Shown in pieces: positions 25,541 through 51,507 of a stretch of 64,000 bases of DNA. Where the stretch lies: the NCBI GenBank assembly GCA_023853785.1, contig JAJIRX010000786.1, forward strand, positions 1 to 64,000. The letters are read 5' to 3'. The notes under the pieces are model-generated. The model searched no databases, had not been told where the DNA came from, and saw nothing but the letters and a program-made list of their open reading frames with translations. Position 1 is the stretch's first letter. The number at the start of each line of letters is the position of its first letter. The translations under genes were made by a program, and so were the position numbers. This stretch comes from Psilocybe azurescens. Lineage: Eukaryota > Basidiomycota > Agaricomycetes > Agaricales > Agrocybaceae.

Positions 25541-27249
25541 CGCACTTCAGGGATGCTCGTCCAGGTCCAGGTCCTGATCCCTCATTGCTTCCTCCCTCCT
25601 TCACCTTGCATGATGCTCCGAACCCGCCTCGCGGGCTCACCAAGTCCTCTCACTCTCCCTTCACCCCTCCTCGTGCCCAGCCCCTGACCCAGCCCCAAAC
25701 ATCGAGACTGACAGCACCGCATACGCAATCTGCCGCCTCTCAAGTTGCCGCTCGTACTCCACCTCAAATGATTCCCTTGAGCCATCGACGTCATGACTGT
25801 CGTCGTCGGGATCGACATCATGGCCATCACTATCGCGGTTATCGTCCTCGCCATCATCCAGGGACTCTTCACCATCTAAATAAACGTCGAAGTCATCGCG
25901 GTCGAGGTCGAGGTTGAGGTGAAGGACACTAGGCGAAGGCAGAGCGCTACCCGACTGAGCCGCCGTAGCGCGTGCGGATGCCGGCGGTGGTAATTGTGGT
26001 GATGTTGGTGATGTTAGTGCCCTTGCGTGCACGCGTGTTGGTGCTGGTGCCAATGTGGGTGTGAGAGGCAATGCTGGTAAAGGTAAGGGTAAAGGTGAGG
26101 GCACGATGAATGGAGACGAGGCGAGCTCGATCAGGGGTGACTGGAACTGGCACTTGAGCTGACACTTGGGCCAGAGGTATAGCTGTGGCTAGAGGTTGCA
26201 CAGGAGCAGAACCAGCTTCTACACTTCGCTGCCCACGCTCAGCGCCCTCCTGCTCCCTATACCCCACATTCTGCTGTAACAGTAACAACACCGGCGACGG
26301 CACCATCCTCATCCTCATCGTCGCCAGACTCTTCCTGCTGTTCATGCTCATGCTCGTGTTCTGATTGACGATCGTCGTCCCAATCTTCATCATTCAGAGA
26401 GCCCTGATTCCAACTTTGACCCTGCCCCTCATCCAATGATCGAAGCAGGCGCACCCCTAACCAGCCCCATTACCAGCTCCATCCTCCTCCTCCTCCTCCA
26501 ACCCCTCCGAGTCATGGACAGATATCGAGATCACACTGGAAGGCATCAGAGGTATCGCGAGCTCCATCGACATCTTGCCGTCGTCGTCGCCGTTTTTGTT
26601 GTCTTTGTCTATTAAATCGGGCGCATCGGGATCATGAACGGTAGCAAGGGTAGGAGCGGGAAGAGGTGTTGGATGTGGAGCAGGGATTAGAACATGAACA
26701 GTGCCAGCGTTTCCGGGGACAGAGACGAAGATGGAGGCTGATGAGGGCAGTCTTGTTCGCGTTGTTCCGTACGTCCTGTAAAGAGAAATAAATAAGATAA
26801 AGCGGGTCAGAAAGACCGATCGAAAAAGTAAAAAGAGAAAAACAAAAAGAGGAGAAATCAAGGCAAACAAAAACAAAAAAAAGGATGTCGAGATATACGA
26901 AAGTCAAAAGTATACACATAGGGAAGTTACATTGTAGCGAGTGACTTGGTCCATAGAACGCATACAATGTATATGATTCACTCGGTGTCAATGAATTCTA
27001 TGGAAGCTGGCTGTAATTAGTATAATAGATATAATATACAATGTAGTGATTGAATAAGTACTGTGAATTCACATGTATAAGCACAGTGTTACCCAAATTC
27101 AGCTGCAGCTGCTCATATTTTAAGGTCAGCCCCGAGGATATCGGCCACATGCTGACTGAAATAGTACTGAGTATTGCATTGGGGTATTTACCAAATTAAG
27201 TAGTGCAAATAAATGGTTAAACAAATATATTGCAAATGAATATGAAGTA

Positions 27250-28960
27250 ATTAATGGGTTTGCAGCCGCATAAACTTGGCCCCGGCCTGACCAATGCTAC
27301 AGACCGGTCATAGCTGACCATTCAATGAGCCAAAATACAGAATATGGAGACCAAAGAATGAAACTTGACATTATAAAAAATAAATTAGAACTGGATATGA
27401 GGTGGTTAATGTCTCTGCAGTCGCATAAACTCGGCCCCGACCTGACCGATGCTACAGACCAGCCATAGCCAACCATTCAGTGAGATAAAAGACAGAATAT
27501 GGAGACCAAAGCATAAAATTTAACATTAGAACAAATAAAATAGAGCTGGATATGATGTAGTTAATGTCTCTGCAGTCGTATAAACTCGGCCTCTACCTGA
27601 CCGATGCTACAGACCGGTCATAGCCGATCATTCAATGAGCCAAAAGACAGAATATTGAGACAAACGGATGCAATTTACGATCAGAAATAATAAATCGGAG
27701 CTGGATATGAGATAGTTAATTGTTCTGTAGTCGCATAAACTCGGCTCCGGCCTGACCAATAATGCAGGCCAATCAGTAACAACCATTCAGTGGAACAAAA
27801 TAAAAAATATGGAGACCAAAGAATGAAATTTAACACTAGAAAACATAAATCAGAGCTGGATACAACATAGATAATGGCTTGCCAGTCACATAAAATTGGT
27901 TCCGAACTGATCAATGCTACAGGCCGGCCAAAGCCAACCATTCAGTGAGACAAAATGAAAGATATAGCAAGCAAAGGATGAAATCTAACACTAGAAAAAA
28001 ATAAATTGGAGCTGGATTTGAAGTAGATAGTGGCTCCGCAGTTGTATAATCTCAGCCCTGGCCTATCCGATGTCACAGACCGGTCATAGCTGATCACTGA
28101 GTGAGCCAAAATACACAACATTGAGACAAATGAATAAAAGTTCATTGTAGAAAAAATTGGGGTGCATATGAGGTGGTTAATGGCTCTGTAGTTGCATAAA
28201 TTCGGCCCCCGACCCAACCAATGCTGCATGCCAGTCAAAGTTGATCATTCAGTGAGACAAAATACTGTATATTGAGACAAATAGGTGAAATTTAATAGCA
28301 AAAACATAAATTGGAGCTGAATATGAATTGGATAATGGCTCTCTGCAGTTGCTCAAACTCTGCCTCAGCTTTCCCAATAATACAAGTTGGGCATAGCCGA
28401 TCATTCAGTGAGCTAAAGTACAGAATATTTAAATAAATAGATGAAAGTGTATAGCTGAATAAATAAATGGAAACTGAATATGTAGTAATCAATGGCTCTG
28501 CGGTCACCTCAGCTTGACTCCAGCATAGCATATGGTACAGGCCAGTCCAAGCCAACCATTCAGTCTGCCAAAATACTGAATTTTGAGATAAAACACTAAA
28601 TATTGAGACAAATGGATCAGTGAATAGAAGGAAAAATATATTGGAGCTGAATATGAAGTCATTAATGGCTTTACAGTCTCATCAGGTTGTCCCTTGCCTA
28701 GCTGATGTGACTGGTTGGGCCAAACTGACCATTCATTCACCTGAAATACAGAATATCAACAAGAATGGATGACAATAAATGCCTGCAGAAATAAATTGGG
28801 GCAGAATATAAAGTGGCTCATTGTTTTACAGTTGCATCAGCTTGTACCCAGTCTAGCCAACTACACAGTCTTAGAAAATCCATTCACTCATTTAGGTTAA
28901 ATACAAAATATTGACAGGAATGGATGAAAGTGATCTATTCATCTAAATCATTGAACTATA
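27250..28960 (+). repeat. About eleven tandem ~150-bp units inside element G
   Basis: Each unit contains versions of TGCAGTCGCATAAACTCGGC, ..CTGACCGATGCTACAGACC and CCATTCAGTGAG. Units 1-3 are close to one another and to the three inverted units of the right arm; later units drift until the last two are barely recognisable. Confidence 0.85.
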
Positions 28961-29614
28961 GTGAATTGAGCTGCCATTTGCAGCAACACAGGTTCACCAC
29001 TGGTTTTTACTGCAGTATTGTTTGTCCACTTCTCCCCTTAAATCATCCAAACTTGGACTGCTTTAACACATTTCATAGTCACTATGCATTGGTTTAATTT
29101 GGCTCAAAAGCAATGATTTCAAAAATATTCAGTTGTTCAGAGGTCCTGTCAGGAATAAATTTGTAAGATTTTTAGTTAGGAATGTGTAAGTTTAATTTAG
29201 ATCTGTTCTTTCAATTTTCATGGCACAGAAAAGTGTGTTAATGAGCTTTGTATTGAGATTTGTCTGAATAGAATTTAAACATTCATCTAACAAGTGGCGG
29301 GTTGCCAGATATTCTACATGTTCATATTCAGATTCAATGTATTTTTTTGGTCATTTACTTGCATCCATTCAAGTCAATATGGAGTATTTTATCTGAAATA
29401 ATAGTCTACATGGCCCAAACTGTGCTCTCATCCTGGCTGGTAAAAAGCTGAGAGAACCACAGAGCATTTATCAACTTTATATTCAGCTGCAACACATTTG
29501 TTCAGGCAGTAAATTAAATGCATTCACATGAATATTAAATGTTTTGTTGTACTGAATAGTTGGTCTTTCCTAAATAGTGTAATTGGCCAGGGTAGTAGTA
29601 AGTAGATGTGACTG

Positions 29615-30426
29615 GAGAGCCATTAACCACATCATATCCAGCTCTAGTTTATTTATTCTAATGTCAAGTTTCATTCTTTGGTCTCCGTATTCTGTATTTT
29701 GGCTCACTAAATAGTCGGCTATGACCGGTCTGTAGCATCGGTCAGGTTGGGGCCGAGTTTATACGACTGCAGAGACATTAACTACCTCATATCCAGCTCT
29801 ATTTTATTTGTTCTAATGTTAAATTTTATGCTTTGGTCTCCATATTCTGTCTTTTATCTCACTGAATGGTTGGCTATGGCTGGTCTGTAGCATCGGTCAG
29901 GTCGGGGCCAAGTTTATGCGACTGCAGAGACATTAACCACCTCATATCCAGTTCTAATTTATTTTTTATAATGTCAAGTTTCATTCTTTGGTCTCCATAT
30001 TCTGTATTTTGGCTCATTGAATGGTCAGCTATGACCGGTCTGTAGCATTGGTCAGGCCGGGCCGAGTTTATGCGGCTGTAAACCCATTAATTACTTCATA
30101 TTCATTTGCAATATATTTGTTTAACCATTTATTTGCACTACTTAATTTGGTAAATACCCCAATGCAATACTCAGTACTATTTCAGTCAGCATGTGGCCGA
30201 TATCCTCGGGGCTGACCTTAAAATATGAGCAGCTGCAGCTGAATTTGGGTAACACTGTGCTTATACATGTGAATTCACAGTACTTATTCAATCACTACAT
30301 TGTATATTATATCTATTATACTAATTACAGCCAGCTTCCATAGAATTCATTGACACCGAGTGAATCATATACATTGTATGCGTTCTATGGACCGCGTCAC
30401 TCACTACAATGTAACTTCCCTATGTG
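29615..30426 (-). repeat. Right inverted arm of element G
   Basis: The reverse complement follows 26915-27710: terminal ~330 bp nearly identical, then three repeat units in the same order. Confidence 0.85.
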
Positions 30427-43085: not shown

Positions 43086-43172
43086 AGCACGTCCCCTATA
43101 CACGTTCTTTTCCTAGCCGGCTTAAAAAAAATTGACGATAACAAAGCTACGCGATTCACGCCTCCCTCTACG

Positions 43173-43708
43173 GTGGCCGAGAACCGCATGGCTCCAACTT
43201 TTTCTCAACTTAGCCGAGCCTTCCTATTTCGTCAAGTGCATATGTAAGCTACCTAAATACATATATTGTTGCACAACCCCCGTGCATATCTTAGTAGAAT
43301 AACAATTTTCTGTGGGTATCTAGGATGTCTAGACTACATATATACAGGTTTTCAGAGTGCACAACAGTCCCTGCAGGTTGTGCGCCAATTGAGGCACTTC
43401 CCCTTAGGTGAGAGACATGTGATCCCGTGACAAGAGAACTCAGACATCCATATAGAATGACTGCAGCACGGAGCATGAACTTCTAAGATACAAAATATAT
43501 ATCAATATAAAGCTATTACAATTGTCTACACAATTATATGTGTTTTTAAAGTTACCCAACGATGACTATGAAATGTGAGCGCAAACCATTGAAAAGTCTG
43601 GTGTGCACTGCAATTTGTAAATAAAGCCAAGCAACGTAATTGTGGCTGACCGCGTCAAGCACACCCTCTCGAAATGGGCGCTTGTGTCAATTACAAGTCA
43701 ATTTTGAG
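43173..43708 (+). repeat. Left 536-bp TIR
   Basis: Outer edge GTGGCCGAGAACCGCATGGC, inner edge ...GTCAATTTTGAG. It contains a GCGCCC/GGGCGC hairpin (about 43655-43675) and a 61-codon frame on the inner-to-outer strand (43291-43476) that is conserved in the other arm. Confidence 0.9.
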
Positions 43709-43842
43709 ATAACATCATTGAGAGTGTGTATTTAACAATTTTAGAATGTAATTTAATGCCATATAAAGGCTCGGATATATTTAAGAATGTCAAATACCGG
43801 TAGATTTGTGGTCAATTGTGGTTTCAACCTGTTAATGCAGGC

Positions 43843-46387
43843 TCACTCTGCAATTTCTCCTTCCTCTTCGGCATCCTGTTCAGAGCTCTGAGACTCTTCA
43901 GCCTCAGAGTAATTTGTATCCGTATCCTCCTCTCTGTCTATTAGGTTTAAATGCAGTTGCATAATGAGATTTTTACAAACATTAAAGAGCTGCCAGCATT
44001 TACCTGACTCGGAATCCTTGCTTAAGTTGAAGAGTGCACTAATTGGCTCAGTTGTTGTTGGGAGCTTAAACCTTTTACAAAGCTTATTGCACTGATGTTG
44101 TTTGCAGAACATCTTAATCCCTTCAATTCCGTTGTCACCTAGACCAGTAGTTTGCAGTTTACTGATGTTATTCAAGATTAGAATGTATTTGCGCAAACAT
44201 ATGTTCGGAAAAAACATACCTATGGATCATTACATCAAATAGGGTAATCAAGCTTGCTCCTTGAATGTTCTCCACAATATTTGGCATTATAATCCCTGAC
44301 ATAAGTGAGCCTTGAGTTAGGATCTTGCGCATTTTTGAATAAATTAAATGGGACTGACCTTGGATATCTACTGCTACAAGATTGGCCTCGGAGTCTGCCA
44401 GGGTAAAATGTGCGAATGTATCGCATGTCTGACCCGCAAGATCAGACACCTTGTTATGATTACCGGCCTTGTCACTCCCAGAGAACTTCCACATGCTTTA
44501 ATAGTCAAGGAGAGGATCAACAATCCAAGCAAAGTCTTTGCATGGACCGTCTATAACCTTGAGTATAAAAGCACTTGCTACTTTGATATCTACAGAAATA
44601 TTTCAGATTGACTTGGATTAATGAATATTGGGACATGAGACTGACCATGTATAGATATTTTATGCTCAATCGCAATCTTATTGAAAGCTTGAACAGAGTG
44701 TTTGATGTTTAGTTGCCGAATTAACTCAGCCTTCAAGTGTATAATGTTTTCCTGAATTTCGGGTCTAGTTCCTGATCCAACATCATAGTATTTCTTTGCA
44801 GCGTACAGATTGTTGGATCCACTGAAGTGCATCTAAATATGAGAGGAGCAACATAATTAGCATAGCTAAGTCAAGGATTGGAAAGTCTGAGAACCTTGTA
44901 AGCTTTCTTTGTAGTGCCCAAAGCAAATTATTTTTGTCAATGAAGATCTTATAGATTTTCTCAGACGTATGCCACACTGGCTCTGGAGACTCGTCAGAAA
45001 TCTTCACTGATATTTTACACACTCGGAAAACTTCTTGATCAGCGTTTGGGCGGGCAACAGTGACTGTTTTAAAGTATGTGCCCGATGTTTGAGAACCTAG
45101 GTTAAGAGAGAAAAGGAAGTCAGCCAATGTCTAGTAGAATAATATCCTTTTATTTACGCTTTGAAGGGTGGCTATTATACTCAATCTCAGCCTTGCGCTT
45201 GGAGGAAAAGGAAAGATAAGATATCTAATTTCTTGACTCAGTTAAGCTTGTGTAAAATCAGACAAATAGTACACACCTCTTCAAATCCATTGGTATCAAT
45301 GCCATTCTCATTTTCTCTTTCAGCAACTGGGAAGTCCACAAGCGCAGCCAGCTCTAGTGAAAAATCTTCTGACTTTTCACCTGAACAAATAAGCCCTGCT
45401 GCTCAGTTGACTTCTTCCACAAATCCCGTAAGGTACATGTGGGAAGCTGCGACACTGGATCAAGCAGTACACGCCCTGTGTGATAATATAGCTTGACTTC
45501 TTCACTATGTACAATATCATGTGATGTGAGCAAGTGAAAGTCTTCATAAGAGAATGAATAATACCTTGAACGAATGCGATGGTTATGTTCTTGAGCATAT
45601 ATACTATCAAGCCATGTAATAATATGTCCCATAATCTCAGACCATAATCTTGTGTCATCATATGCTGTACTGACTGGGTCAAATGGTGTTACAAGTTTCT
45701 CTGAATTCGCGATTGGTGATTTTCGTATCTGTAGAGAACTTATACATTAACAGGTTTCTTGATATGTAGAATTAGTACATACCACAACATTTGTTTTAGG
45801 AACAGCTTTTGGTACACCTTCCGGCACTAGCACCACGGAATTTTGGAAGTGCAACACATGCACCAGGAGCTGCTCTTAATATGGCATTTGCATATCCACT
45901 CTGGTAAGAGTTTAGAACATGCTGAGCATGTGCAATACGAGGCTGAAAAAAACTAGTTAGTAATGATAACACATAGGTCTGAATATTTTATACTTACATC
46001 ATTGGGGTCACGTACTGCTTGAGTTTCTTGTTGAACTTGAAGCAGATTCTGGTAGGGTAAGGTACCACAAGCACCGTGAGTCCTTGAATTTACTGGGTGT
46101 GCCATCGCATAATGGACATCATCATTGAGGAGAACTTGATGAGAAGATACAAGAGTAGCTGGCTAGGGTGGAGGCATAGAATTTGAGTCAGCTAGCTCAC
46201 GATCTTTGCATGGGAAACATGCATGACCAGAAACTAGAAACTCAAAGTATCTGCCACAATCACCACAGATAGGCCATTCAGAACGTGGCTTGGATGTTCC
46301 AGAAGCTGTAGAAAGCTCTGTGCATGATTCACATTGTGCTCCATCTAAGAACTTATACGCTTTGGAGCATCCATTGCATTGAGGCAT
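43843..46387 (-). pseudogene. Alpha-kinase with N-terminal zinc ribbons
   Basis: Translation from ATG at 46387 gives two zinc ribbons (CNGC..CESC and CGDC..CFPC). A TAG at 46163-46165 interrupts an otherwise continuing frame (SNSMPPP then PATLVSSHQVLLNDDVHYAM). Later exons, with GT-AG introns, give a variable middle and then the alpha-kinase (MHCK/EF2K-type) catalytic domain. It has NLYAAKKYYDVG (ATP-binding lysine region), DTFAHFTLADSEANLVAVDI followed by QG, ASLITLFDVMIH, and the C-terminal signature GLGDNGIEGIKMFCKQHQCN with KLC. The tail is acidic (EEDTDTNYSEAEESQSSEQD). These kinases phosphorylate Ser/Thr, often in helices; the substrate is unknown here. A frame change near 45390 plus the early stop make it a probable pseudogene, although the catalytic end is well kept. 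Confidence 0.8.
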
Positions 46388-47096
46388 GGTAGAACGGAGG
46401 AATGAGAGGTAGATCTTCAGACATTGAACACATACTTTATATACTTCTGTAGTCAAACTGTAAGAAGACTGAATTAAATTTGCTACAATATTCTAGGCTG
46501 GACCTAGCTTACAAGCTTCATTTCAACTCCTTGCAATAACTGTGCATTTTCATCCTGTTTCATGAACGTTTCATGGCAGGACATAATAAAATTCCCAAAA
46601 GGAAGGTAGAATTCCCAGAATGTAATTACATGGGCGCTTTTGAGTCCTCCGACATCTCCGCAATGTCTATAAATTTATAAATTGAAATGCTGATGATAGC
46701 TTCACAATTTTAGCTTAAGTAAAACATGTAAGAGAAGGATCTGCAATAAATTTATATGCAAACCTGCGTGATACTCACCAGCCAGGCAAGTAACAAACAC
46801 AACATCAGCTCATAATTACACCCTATCCAAAAAATTGAGCAAGAAATCTGGCTATGTGCAAGGAATGGTGAGCTGATACATGTTTCAAAATGTACTAACT
46901 CGTCACTCTCATTAAATTTTTATCCTTCTTGGCGTTTTAGACAAAGTTCAAACACGGATTACAAAGGCCAAGAAGCAATTTGGAGAGCAATGGTGTACTT
47001 TCAGGCGTAGATAAATAGAGCTATTAGTCCCTAATATACACTTATTATTAACAGTGCTCACCTAGCTTCTCTTAGTAGCAGCTGCACTAGCACAAC
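46388..47096. promoter_or_regulatory. Divergent intergenic region between kinase and integrase genes
   Basis: A ~710-bp AT-rich spacer between the two start codons, presumably holding both promoters. No TATA box or repeat stands out; no other gene is seen. Confidence 0.5.
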
Positions 47097-48753
47097 ATGC
47101 CTCGCAAAAAAGATCAGATCAGAGAAGTCCACAACTTCAACACCATTTATGAATCAATATCAAGGTGCAACTATACGTAAGCCTTCCTTGATTTTCTTTC
47201 TAAGTATACTTTACTCATGTAGTCAGTTGACAAGCTTCCAAATCTGAAAGCAATTTTACAGGGCCATGTTAACACTCGAGTTCTTCAGCAGGAAATACCA
47301 GACAAAATTCGTGAAGACCATGGAGTTGAAATTAAGTATGTACTATCAGATATTATATCCAGAATTCAGAGCAATTCTGAAATAAGTTACATGTAGATTG
47401 CGCACAGTCCAGAAGTACATGAAAGATCTAGGTGTACTAACCCCAAGGCGAAACGGATTTACTGCAGAAGAACAGGCTGCAGCTATCAATGAGATCCTAC
47501 TAGAAGATCCATTGGGCCGGTGGGGAGGACGACTAGTACAAGAAAAGCTTAGCAATTGGTCTATTCATATTCCTCGGTAAGATTTTTCTGTGTTTTAACT
47601 ATAGTAATTACACTTTTTAACCAGTAGAATTACTACAGTGACCACATAACACAGTATCGTGCTGCAACAGATCCTGAAGGATCTTCATCTCGTCATCCCA
47701 CCACTAGAAGGGCACATCACCATGGCTTATGGTCAATTGGTCCAAATGAAGAGTGGTGTGTTGATGGACATGAAAAATACTTCTCTTAATAGGAATTGCA
47801 ATCTGGGGATTTTGGATAAGTACAGCCGTCTAGAGCTAGGGCTTTGGGCTATGCCAAGTGCTCGAGTCAAAGAGCTACCTCCAGCTCTGTTTCTCCGACT
47901 TGTTAAATTGAAAGGAGGCAAGTTTTCTCTATTTTCCGAACTTATATCTTAAAAGAGCTCTAAAATCTGGTTCCCTACCTTATACAGGAATGGCTTTAAC
48001 TACAACAAGTGATATGGGAACTGAAGTTGGCCTTCTCATTTCGCTTGTCACAACACTTCGGTAAAATTCCTTCCACTCCACTGTTTACAGTTGGTGTTAA
48101 ATATTTACTGATTGATCTATTAGGCACAAGTTTCAGCCCTTCCTCTCGGAAGACCAGCTTCCAGCCTTTAAGACAGTGAAGAGTGTATACAATATTAGTA
48201 GAGAAAGGGGTGGCGTCCGATCTGGGAGAAAGAGTTGGGCAATGTTGCCCATGAATATAAACTTGGAAAGTCATCATCTGGTTTTATTGAGAATAACGAG
48301 TTCCATAGGCAAGTTCCACACCCTCACATAAATAAATAGATCTAATGAGAAGTTTTTAATAACAGCACTCTGTCCCAGTGGATCTGGGGAAGCATAGTCC
48401 AGCTCAAACTTAATGAAATCATGCAAGAAAGTTGCAATCAACCAGTCTGAAAACAGAAGACACTCTTACCCAGTGGGGCCCGCCGGATTGACATGTACAG
48501 CCATCCAGAGAAGTTTGGAGTTGAGGATCAGCTTCTCAAAACTCCAGAAGATGTCAACATTGATGACCTGCTGCTTCAATATGACCGCCCAGATCTTCTA
48601 CAATTTGGAACAGATCAGCAGGTCAGTTTATTTGAAATGATCTATAATTCAATAGGTGCACCTATGTTGAGGGCAAGAGATGGTTGGAGTGTGTTTGTAC
48701 AGATGGTCAACTACTATGTCGAGTCATTCTCTCAGGACCAAGGTGCATTGTAA
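47097..48753 (+). pseudogene. DDE integrase-core transposase
   Basis: Start ATG at 47097 (MPRKKDQIREVHNFNTIYES), followed by several short introns. The N-terminal helix-turn-helix-like part includes LRTVQKYMKDLGVLTPRRNG and DPLGRWGGRLVQEKL. The integrase core has GPNEEWCVDGHEK (first D), ILDKYSRLELGLWAMPSARV, TSDMGTEVG (second D) and YNISRERGWRPIWEKEL (candidate E). The C-terminal part reads GARRIDMYSHPEKFG and LLQYDRPDLLQFGTDQQVSL, ending at TAA/TAG near 48753. This is a multi-copy Agaricomycete family related to retroviral/IS-type integrases that cut and join DNA. Two single-base shifts (near 47775 and 47812) and a TGA near 48449, probably an old CGA arginine codon, disable it. Confidence 0.78.
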
Positions 48754-48888
48754 TGGCTCAACTTTCTACCAGTAGTACTCTTGAAGATGTATTTAGCTCA
48801 TTGTAGTAAAGAATATATGTGTACCACCTCATATACATGTATACCTAGCTTACTACATATATAATATACATGTCTCCAATGATATTCC

Positions 48889-49424
48889 CTCAAAATTGAC
48901 TTGTAATTGACACAAGCGCCCATTTCGAGAGGGCGCGCTTGACATGATCAGCCACAATTACGTTGCTTGGCTTTATTTACAAATTGCAGTGCACACCAGA
49001 CTTTTCAATGGTTTGCGCTCACATTTCATAGTCATCGTTGGGTAACTTTAAAAACACATATAATTGTGTAGACAATTGTAATAGCTTTATATTGATATAT
49101 ATTTTGTATCTTAGAAGTTCATGCTCCGTGCTGCAGTCATTCTATATGGATGTCTGAGTTCTCTTGTCACGGGATCACATGTCTCTCACCTAAGGGGAAG
49201 TGCCTCAATTGGCGCACAACCTGCAGGGGCTATTGTGCACTCCGAAAACCTATATATATGTAGTCTAGACACCCTGGATATCTACATAAAATTGTTATTC
49301 TACTAAGATATACACCGGGGTTGTGGAAAAACATATGTATTTAGGTAGCTTACATATGCACTTGACGAAATAGGAAGGCTCGGCTAAGTTGAGAAAAAGT
49401 TGGAGCCATGCGGTTCTCGGCCAC
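48889..49424 (-). repeat. Right 536-bp TIR
   Basis: Inverted copy of 43173-43708, same length, with the mirrored 61-codon frame at 49121-49306. Confidence 0.9.
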
Positions 49425-49576
49425 GCTATCCCTCCCTGAACACTGTATAAGCAATATCACCAATCTACATCCCACAAGCGTGACTGCGCCGTCATCTATC
49501 CCTCATCCACGCTCAGTTCAGTCTGAGAACGACACATTCACTCTCATCAAGTTTATTCTTTTGGTCTCTAGGATAC

Positions 49577-51507
49577 GAGGGTCTTTCCCTTTCCCCCACA
49601 CAATCCATATGGACTCCAGTGGACTCCAGTGGACTCCAGTGGACTCCACTGGACTCTCTGTCCAGCCAAACTGGCTGACAGATTGTCCAGTCCACTGGAC
49701 TGGAACTGGACTGCAGTCCACTGGAGTCCACTGGACTCGCACTGGACTCCTGCCAAATTTTCAGTCCAGTCTCAGTCCAGTGGATTATGAGTCCAGTCAA
49801 GTCCACTGGAGTCCACTGGAGTCCACTGGACTGGGGCTTAAATATTCACTGAACAACAACAAATAATATATTTATTAGCACAGTCCAGTGGAGTCCAGTG
49901 GAGTCCAGTGGAGTCCAGTGGAGTCCAGTTGAATCCACTGGAGTCCACTGGATGCAATAATTAACACAATATCCAAAGTATGATCATTAGTTATTAATAT
50001 TAATTGCAAAAAATAAAAGACTAAAATCAATGGAAATAAACTCTATGAAATGACAGTTAAATGAAACAATAGTTAAATACACTAGGGAGCAATGCCTCCC
50101 TATGGATACAATTTTGTATTTTGTTCAGTCCGCGGGGTCAAATTTCACAAGAACATGTGACGCTCACACGTGCACGGCATCGGCCGATCGGCACGACAAC
50201 CATCAAATGGACAACCCCAACCTTTCTTCCGACTACCACTACCACCACCCTCGTCGGTCGGAGCCAGGCGACAGCCAACCCGACACGACAGAGGTTGACG
50301 ACCGAGGACGAGGACGAGGGACGCAGACGCCGGACGCCGGACGGCGGCTGCGACAGGGACGTATGACGCCGGACGGAGCGACAGGGACGAGGACGCGGAC
50401 GTGGACGCAACAGCGACGAGGGACGCTGGATGTGGACGCAACAGCGACGAGGATGCGACAGGGACGATGACAACGACGTGGACGTGGACGCGACAGGGAC
50501 GACGACGGACGCTGGACGACAGGGACGACGACGCTGGACGGGACGCGGGACGACAGGGACGACGACGGACGGGACGGCGGCTGCGACAGGGACGACGACG
50601 ACGGACGCCGGACGGCAGGGACGAACGCGGACGGCAGGGACGCACAACGCCGGACGGCAGGGACGACAACGCCGGACGGCAGGGACGACAACGCCGGACG
50701 GCGGGGATGACAACGCCGGACGGCGGGGACGAAGACGCTGGACGGCGGGGACGACGACGTGGACAGCGGGGACGACGACGTGGACAGCGGGGACGACGAC
50801 GTGGACAGCGGGGACGACGACGTGGACAGCGGGGACGACGGCGGGATGACGACGTGGACGGCGGGGACGACGACGTGGACGGCGGGGACGACGACGCGGA
50901 CGTGGACGCGACAGGGACAACGCGGATGCGACAGGGACGACGATGCGGACGCCGGACGGCGGCCGCGACAGGGACGAGGACCGACGCCGGACGGCAGGGA
51001 CGAGGACGAGGACGAGGACGCCGGACGGGCGGCTGCAACAGCGACAAGGACGGGTACGGCGGCTGCGACAGCGATGGATACGGACGCGGTACCGATGACC
51101 CGACGGACGACGACGACACATACGATGGTAAAGTACTGCTCCTGCTCCCCCTTTTTTATTTTTTATTTTATTATCTTTTTTCTTCCTTTTGTCTTGGCCC
51201 TCGCATGTAGATATGTAGTAATGTATTAAATAGTTATTAATATACTTTATTCCACTAATCTGAATTTATGTTAAGATTGAATTTATTTACTGTGTCAAGT
51301 CCAGTGGACTCCAGTGGACTACAGTGGACTACAGTTATTTTAGTCCATATTCAATGTATAGTATAAGATCTACTAAAGTGCAGTGGAATCCACTGGAGTC
51401 CACTGGACTCTGTTTACCTTTTACACTCAGTATATAGGCAAGTCCAGTGGAGTCCAGTGGAGTCCACTGGAGTCCATATGGACTGTGTGGGGGATGGTAA
51501 AGTACTG
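49577..51507 (+). mobile_element. Element A: 2-kb family member, TSD CTAGGATAC
   Basis: The left end is GAGGGTCTTTCCC, the right end GGTAAAGTACTG, flanked by CTAGGATAC on both sides (49568-49576, 51508-51516). The subterminal zones are packed with palindromic GGACTCCAGT/ACTGGAGTCC units (49611-49950, 51300-51475). The core (50290-51120) is a GAC/GGACG-rich tract. Element B is a close copy in the opposite orientation, sharing the AT-rich arms, the subterminal zones and the CTCACACGTGC..GGCATCGGC region. It encodes no transposase. Confidence 0.9.
50290..51120. repeat. GACGACG-rich tandem core of element A
   Basis: Includes a 21-bp tandem GGGGACGACGACGTGGACAG(C) at about 50747-50840 and GGACGGCAGGGACGACAACG units before it. 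It is strongly purine-rich on the plus strand and open in several frames on both strands by composition. Confidence 0.85.

Follow-up and report, generated by a model that had tools for sequence, protein, structure and literature searches.

A probable IS3EU-type DNA transposon of Psilocybe azurescens that pairs an alpha-kinase gene with a DDE transposase gene

We present here an analysis of a 64,000-nucleotide stretch of the Psilocybe azurescens genome (assembly GCA_023853785.1, contig JAJIRX010000786.1, positions 1 to 64,000), called the window throughout, and of a 6,260-bp element that lies within it at positions 43169-49428. The element carries long terminal inverted repeats, a 6-bp target-site duplication, and two divergently oriented genes, one for an alpha-kinase and one for a transposase. 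It is almost certainly an IS3EU-type DNA transposon, and the kinase is probably a selected, fixed partner rather than captured cargo. C-numbers are contig labels of the 70.37-Mb assembly (G000), in which the window lies on contig C673.

The element and its two genes

The features of the element and its borders are as follows.

43163..43168, no strand: left target-site duplication TCCCTC (direct reading and joined-flank search)
43169..43720, plus strand: left terminal inverted repeat, 552 bp, starting TACGGTGGCC
43843..46387, minus strand: alpha-kinase gene, spliced, exons approximate (PF02816 on one exon, tblastn with P0054, start codon and stop position checked)
46388..47096, no strand: 709-bp spacer between the gene starts, from the gene models; possible shared divergent promoter
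47097..48753, plus strand: IS3EU-type DDE transposase gene, spliced, exons approximate, frameshifted in the window copy
48877..49428, minus strand: right terminal inverted repeat, 552 bp, whose outer end on the minus strand is TAGCGTGGCC
49429..49434, no strand: right target-site duplication TCCCTC (direct reading and joined-flank search)

The original prediction, made from the letters of the window, had placed a transposon-like unit at 43173..49424 between 536-bp inverted repeats. The unit stands, but its arms are 552 bp and its true span is slightly longer. An initial match of the arms (43173-43720 with 48877-49424) covered 548 nt at 96% complementarity, and reading outward extended it to 552 bp with 24 mismatches, 17 of which are transitions. 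The termini are TACGG on the left and CGCTA on the right, giving the TA..TA ends of IS3EU elements, and a perfect duplication of TCCCTC abuts both. A 26-base terminal pattern (up to 3 mismatches) was found twice in the window and never in 100 shuffles. A search with the joined flanks returned two matches, both on the window contig and overlapping by the 6 bases of TCCCTC; an empty insertion site was looked for, and only the element's own two flanks matched. A 2-bp TA duplication as in Tc1/mariner was rejected: the terminal TA is part of the element itself, and what is duplicated is 6 bp long. All 24 arm mismatches lie outside a run of 281 identical bases (arm offsets 199-481), a length never reached in 20,000 shuffles of the 24 positions; this clustering suggests gene conversion between the arms, or constraint. 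Inside the arm, a search for repeats (11 nt or longer) was negative.

The minus-strand gene encodes two N-terminal CxxC..CxxC zinc ribbons followed by an alpha-kinase domain. The alpha-kinase call was borne out: PF02816 matched one window exon with an expectation value (E) of 1.2e-7 (32.5 bits against a curated cut-off of 21.3), and the exon composite aligned by BLASTP at 39% identity over 93% of its length with a 581-amino-acid protein of Cyathus striatus that itself matches PF02816 at E 2.7e-27. The Cyathus striatus kinase P0054 scored 96.5 bits. The catalytic Lys, Asp-x-Gln, and Asp and the zinc ligands are all present in the window reading. In an alignment (A3) of 11 of the 18 database kinases, the Lys is conserved in the 9 of 9 rows that cover the site, Asp-x-Gln and the second Asp in 11 of 11, and the zinc ligands in 11, 11, and 10 of 11; we take these residues to have the catalytic and zinc-binding roles known from alpha-kinases. 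The catalytic block of P0054, with DIQG and H-x-C-N-x-x-C, aligns with those of eEF2K and myosin heavy chain kinase A; the similarity is weak (E 8e-4), and P0054 differs in its N-terminal zinc ribbons and in being transposon-borne. Its AlphaFold model was poor (mean predicted local distance difference test score, 43.1), and its top-ranking Foldseek hit (PB1 domain, E 0.014) was not used. By sequence, the window gene is assigned to the alpha-kinase family PF02816, and kinase activity is predicted.

The plus-strand gene retains the transposase catalytic codons (Asp 47763, Asp 48011, and Glu 48203). Its composite is 61% identical to the best database match and its homologues carry PF24764, in keeping with the integrase originally proposed. 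The model of a full-length relative, P0002, has an integrase fold with a predicted retroviral-integrase-like DDE core; among the Pfam matches of P0002 are weak helix-turn-helix hits upstream of the core and no hit to an integrase zinc-binding domain. The protein is thereby predicted to be a DDD/E transposase related to IS3 and retroviral integrases and without HHCC. A profile built from an alignment (A1) of 24 of the 53 transposase relatives gave no hits among PDB sequences.

Two divergent spliced genes had been predicted; the divergent arrangement holds, and both genes are broken in the window copy. The kinase has premature stops and frameshifts, and RERGWRPIWE, initially read as a single integrase string, crosses a frame break. 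The window copy is unable to make either intact protein and so could move only with the help of another copy.

Copies and pairing in P. azurescens and other fungi

A search of the genome with the arm gave 28 matches. Another full-length copy, with 97.5% identity to that of the window and with its own duplication, lies on contig C504. The transposon first proposed from the inverted arms is borne out. Both ends were recognized by the terminal pattern in six copies, and only these entered the count of duplications. All six have perfect 6-bp duplications: TCCCTC (window), TTGCAC (C504), TTTATA (C289), ATCATG (C745), GTACAG (C429), and CCTGAT (C59). In five of the six, one end is TACGG and the other TAGCG; C504 has TACAG and TAGTG, the variants that CpG decay would give. 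The two ends of the family thus consistently differ.

At CpG dinucleotides of the window copy, 56 of 224 C or G positions read TG/CA in C504, compared with the corresponding change at 0.5 to 2% of positions in the other three dinucleotides and with 7 of 132 in the reverse direction (CpG in C504, TG/CA in the window copy). In this comparison, the decay had no TCG preference. C504 appears to bear the mark expected of methyl-CpG decay if the copy was methylated.

Shorter copies vary in what they keep. C289 and C429 retain parts of both gene ends around internal deletions, in C130 the 3′ parts of the two genes remain, separated by 118 bp, and C745 consists of two arms and a spacer of about 500 bp without a match to the element. 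All four look like non-autonomous derivatives that would have been moved in trans. Arms without either gene, which the original prediction had counted against a two-gene unit, do formally occur, C745 being one example among the short copies, but such copies share the family's ends and its 6-bp type of duplication.

Across the genome, 23 of 27 alpha-kinase loci lie no more than 7 kb from a match to an IS3EU-like transposase, compared with about 0.13 expected by chance in a 70-Mb genome, and 23 of 25 IS3EU-like transposase loci have a kinase match within the same distance. The 27 kinase loci comprise the 18 places of the profile set and, found by similarity, C130 and 8 more, merged by contig; the locus counts are lower bounds because only the best-scoring candidates were scored, and gaps were measured between matched pieces rather than whole genes. 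Weak loci are C500, C846, and C460 among the kinases and C777 (E 1.2e-4) among the transposases. A kinase match is missing at two transposase loci, C277 and C289, although the latter does keep kinase DNA. The unpaired kinases are also associated with transposon ends: C801 is bounded by TATGG..CCATA and has a perfect GTGCAT duplication; the ends around C438 are TACGG..CCGTA, and its flanks agree at 5 of 6 bases; C534 adjoins an arm of the window family; and a C683-family end is found about 750 bp from C551. Of the 27 kinase loci, none clearly lacks a transposon context. The transposases that accompany the kinase fall into three groups, "groups" here being a sorting by similarity and not a tree.

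The 23 pairs are divergent in 17 cases, on the same strand in 4 (C471, C669, C16, and C623; kinase first in 2, transposase first in 2), and convergent in 2. Just beyond the kinase in C669 is a reading frame (L056 2723-3509), presumably a Tc1/mariner-like transposase.

The anatomy of an element with kinase and transposase is confirmed by a very different family represented by C683, an element of about 6.2 kb with TATGG..CCATA ends, the duplication AGCTCG, and two genes, a minus-strand alpha-kinase and a plus-strand PF24764 transposase. Seven contigs (C651, C647, C550, C600, C483, C307, and C117) contain paired 61-base inverted ends related to this family, about 1.25 kb apart in six and 1.95 kb apart in C600; they are likely a miniature non-autonomous family. 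Two other repeat families (L045, L046, and L049; L047 and L054) consist of PF24764 integrases with no kinase detected nearby.

Protein searches returned 53 transposase relatives (48 with fungal names, 1 fish, and 4 unnamed) and 18 kinase relatives (12 with fungal species names). The closest protein relatives are from Agaricales. Six of the 18 database kinases are on contigs with exactly the length of the contig of a transposase of the same species (three in Cyathus striatus and one each in Agrocybe pediades, Pholiota molesta, and Agrocybe chaxingu), and there were no coincidences of exact contig size across species among these proteins. In Agrocybe chaxingu the two genes are numbered consecutively, and the contig is 5,213 bp long; for the two longest contigs, of 347,759 and 215,938 bp, the same size does not show that the genes are near one another. 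Exact identity of contig size is strong but indirect evidence of linkage.

Two other repeat structures lie in the window. A large inverted-repeat unit at 26915-30426 has 368-nt arms (99% complementary) with 155-bp-spaced subrepeats inside, and at 49592-51494, near the element, 54-nt inverted arms (94%) of ACTCCAGTGG repeats flank a long GACGACG-type array.

Relation to described elements

IS3EU/GingerRoot elements are described as having TA..TA termini, usually 6-bp duplications, and a DDD/E transposase without the retroviral HHCC (PMC10045372), all of which the window element shares; the word kinase is absent from the main text of that source by term search. Kojima 2025 (PMC12730594) describes, in its passages on fungal TET-positive IS3EU elements, 6-bp duplications, TAYGG..CCRTA ends, and oppositely oriented transposase and alpha-kinase genes. 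The window element has 6-bp duplications, similar ends, and an alpha-kinase opposite the transposase. Its family has TAYGG at one end only, the right end of the window copy being CGCTA rather than CCRTA, and it is the C683, C801, and C438 families that fit TAYGG..CCRTA. In the described elements, from rust fungi and Tuber indicum, a TET/JBP gene lies between transposase and kinase, whereas in the window element none was recognized and the gene starts are about 700 bp apart. The arms of the described elements are given merely as longer than 30 bp, compared with 552 bp here.

All 15 Tet_JBP matches in the genome are outside the window unit and more than 7 kb from every kinase locus, the nearest being 10.6 kb away; a TET-carrying unit was rejected for the window element, and the kinase is the only accessory gene recognized.

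The original prediction knew of no described transposon class with an alpha-kinase; PMC12730594 describes one in IS3EU. Because the TA..TA ends, the 6-bp duplications, and the opposite alpha-kinase match that description, the pairing itself is already described and not new. The word kinase appears twice in the main text of PMC12730594, in one passage, and no role is proposed there. Among the literature matches listed, mostly at title or abstract level, an alpha-kinase is tied to transposon structure only in this source. Rust gene-family lists include alpha-kinases without a tie to transposons in the passages concerned (PMC5295586, PMC4150398), and alpha-kinases are described as highly expanded in rusts, with 79 and 39 genes in two tabulated fungi (PMC4469406). 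Added here are a new TET-less IS3EU-type element and evidence for the kinase as a constant, selected partner.

Selection on the kinase and its possible role

The ratio of nonsynonymous to synonymous substitution rates (dN/dS) was analysed for six kinase loci out of the 27, each of them from the C683-type group rather than the window's own, in 15 comparisons (2 within and 13 between families). It was 0.08 to 0.21 in the 4 of 13 between-family comparisons that were estimable and 0.68 and 0.85 within families. This is the pattern of a kinase apparently kept by selection while elements move and decaying in each copy. Kinase and transposase distances correlate over seven pairs (r 0.88; 5 of 5,040 permutations) and over six without a near-identical Cyathus pair (r 0.64; 4 of 720). 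The pairing of kinase with transposase at most kinase loci suggests that the kinase helps the element to move or survive, and that pairing, dN/dS, and the same-size contigs favour the fixed partner over cargo captured in this copy, the two alternatives first raised.

Several points weigh against, or limit the case for, a constant, selected kinase in an IS3EU-type element. For nine of the 27 kinase loci, the evidence is similarity to another kinase rather than a PF02816 score. Seven further PF24764 integrase loci outside the 25 have no detected kinase within 7 kb (by distance for 18 kinase loci, the other nine being on different contigs), so a kinase does not accompany all integrases of the PF24764 family; including them gives 23 of 32. 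Twelve of the 18 database kinases have no same-size contig match to a transposase. Synonymous divergence (dS) was saturated in 9 of the 13 between-family comparisons, and the usable 4 have dS of about 2 and share sequences, so they amount to about two independent tests. With one pair per species, the distance correlation falls to r 0.43 (13 of 120 permutations, non-significant), so the original suggestion that kinase phylogeny might track that of the transposase received a weak test, and co-phylogeny is suggested but not shown. The assignment to IS3EU was judged against published descriptions and not Repbase sequences. Finally, Styx of Zymoseptoria, assigned to IS3EU, resembles the window element in having several genes, an IS3EU-related transposase, and 6-bp duplications, yet of its four reading frames the three besides the transposase are given as GATA-domain, CCHC-domain, and DUF3577 genes, with no kinase in that description (PMC10853768).

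As a whole explanation, a cut-and-paste IS3EU-type transposon with a kinase that raises net mobility is very likely. The transposase would bind the arms through its N-terminal helix-turn-helix, excise the element, and reinsert it with a 6-bp stagger. Both genes may be co-expressed from the spacer by a shared divergent promoter, and both proteins would act in trans on deleted copies. Targets of the kinase would be the transpososome or a host factor in chromatin, silencing, or repair, whose phosphorylation would increase net mobility. The chance that its main target is a host silencing, repair, or cell-state factor comes close to even; the transposase or transpososome is a tentative candidate, and something else is rather unlikely.

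How the kinase would act could be explained in two ways. It may defend the element indirectly by phosphorylating a host silencing or DNA-methylation factor, a serious possibility that falls somewhat below an even chance. The analogy is with TET/JBP enzymes, whose proposed role in other fungal transposons is to counter methylation; related rust elements additionally carry a TET gene (PMC12730594), and here the kinase is the sole accessory gene recognized, with no Tet_JBP match nearby. CpG-type decay in C504 is consistent with such a defence, although the decay reflects exposure to methylation and says nothing about kinase action. Alternatively, and only tentatively, the kinase may act on the transposase, switching the assembly, timing, or cell-cycle stage of transposition. 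The predominance of divergent adjacent genes would fit co-expression, and the seven-pair correlation points the same way, but that correlation is carried by the Cyathus pairs and weakens without the near-identical pair and with one pair per species.

It is improbable that the kinase was captured from the host as cargo or simply rides, as a neutral passenger, inside some copies of the element: short copies without intact genes (C745, C429, and C59) and near-neutral within-family decay would be expected of a passenger, but kinase loci are mostly paired and none clearly lacks a transposon context, the kinase is found alongside three transposase groups and in other Agaricales by same-size contigs, between-family dN/dS is low in the usable comparisons, and the catalytic residues are conserved. 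Chance neighbours or an assembly artefact, that is, unrelated genes near unrelated repeats, have practically no standing, because the broken frames of the window copy are the sole point for them and they are refuted by the second copy on another contig with its own duplication, as well as by flanks matched nowhere else and by the 23 co-occurrences.

The selected, fixed partner remains the favoured reading of the kinase, and an element-encoded kinase would give the transposon phosphorylation control over transposition or silencing. The pairing fixed across three transposase groups turns a brief remark in the literature into a testable claim, for which annotated pairs in Cyathus striatus, Agrocybe pediades, and Pholiota molesta are available for bench work. 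It is reasonably likely that a dedicated kinase is an integral, selected part of a eukaryotic DNA transposon superfamily and that, because all 27 kinase loci detected here are tied to a neighbouring transposase or to transposon ends, fungal alpha-kinase "expansions" may reflect transposon copy number and not the evolution of host signalling. Genome papers that report an "alpha-kinase family expansion" in fungi may largely be counting transposons.
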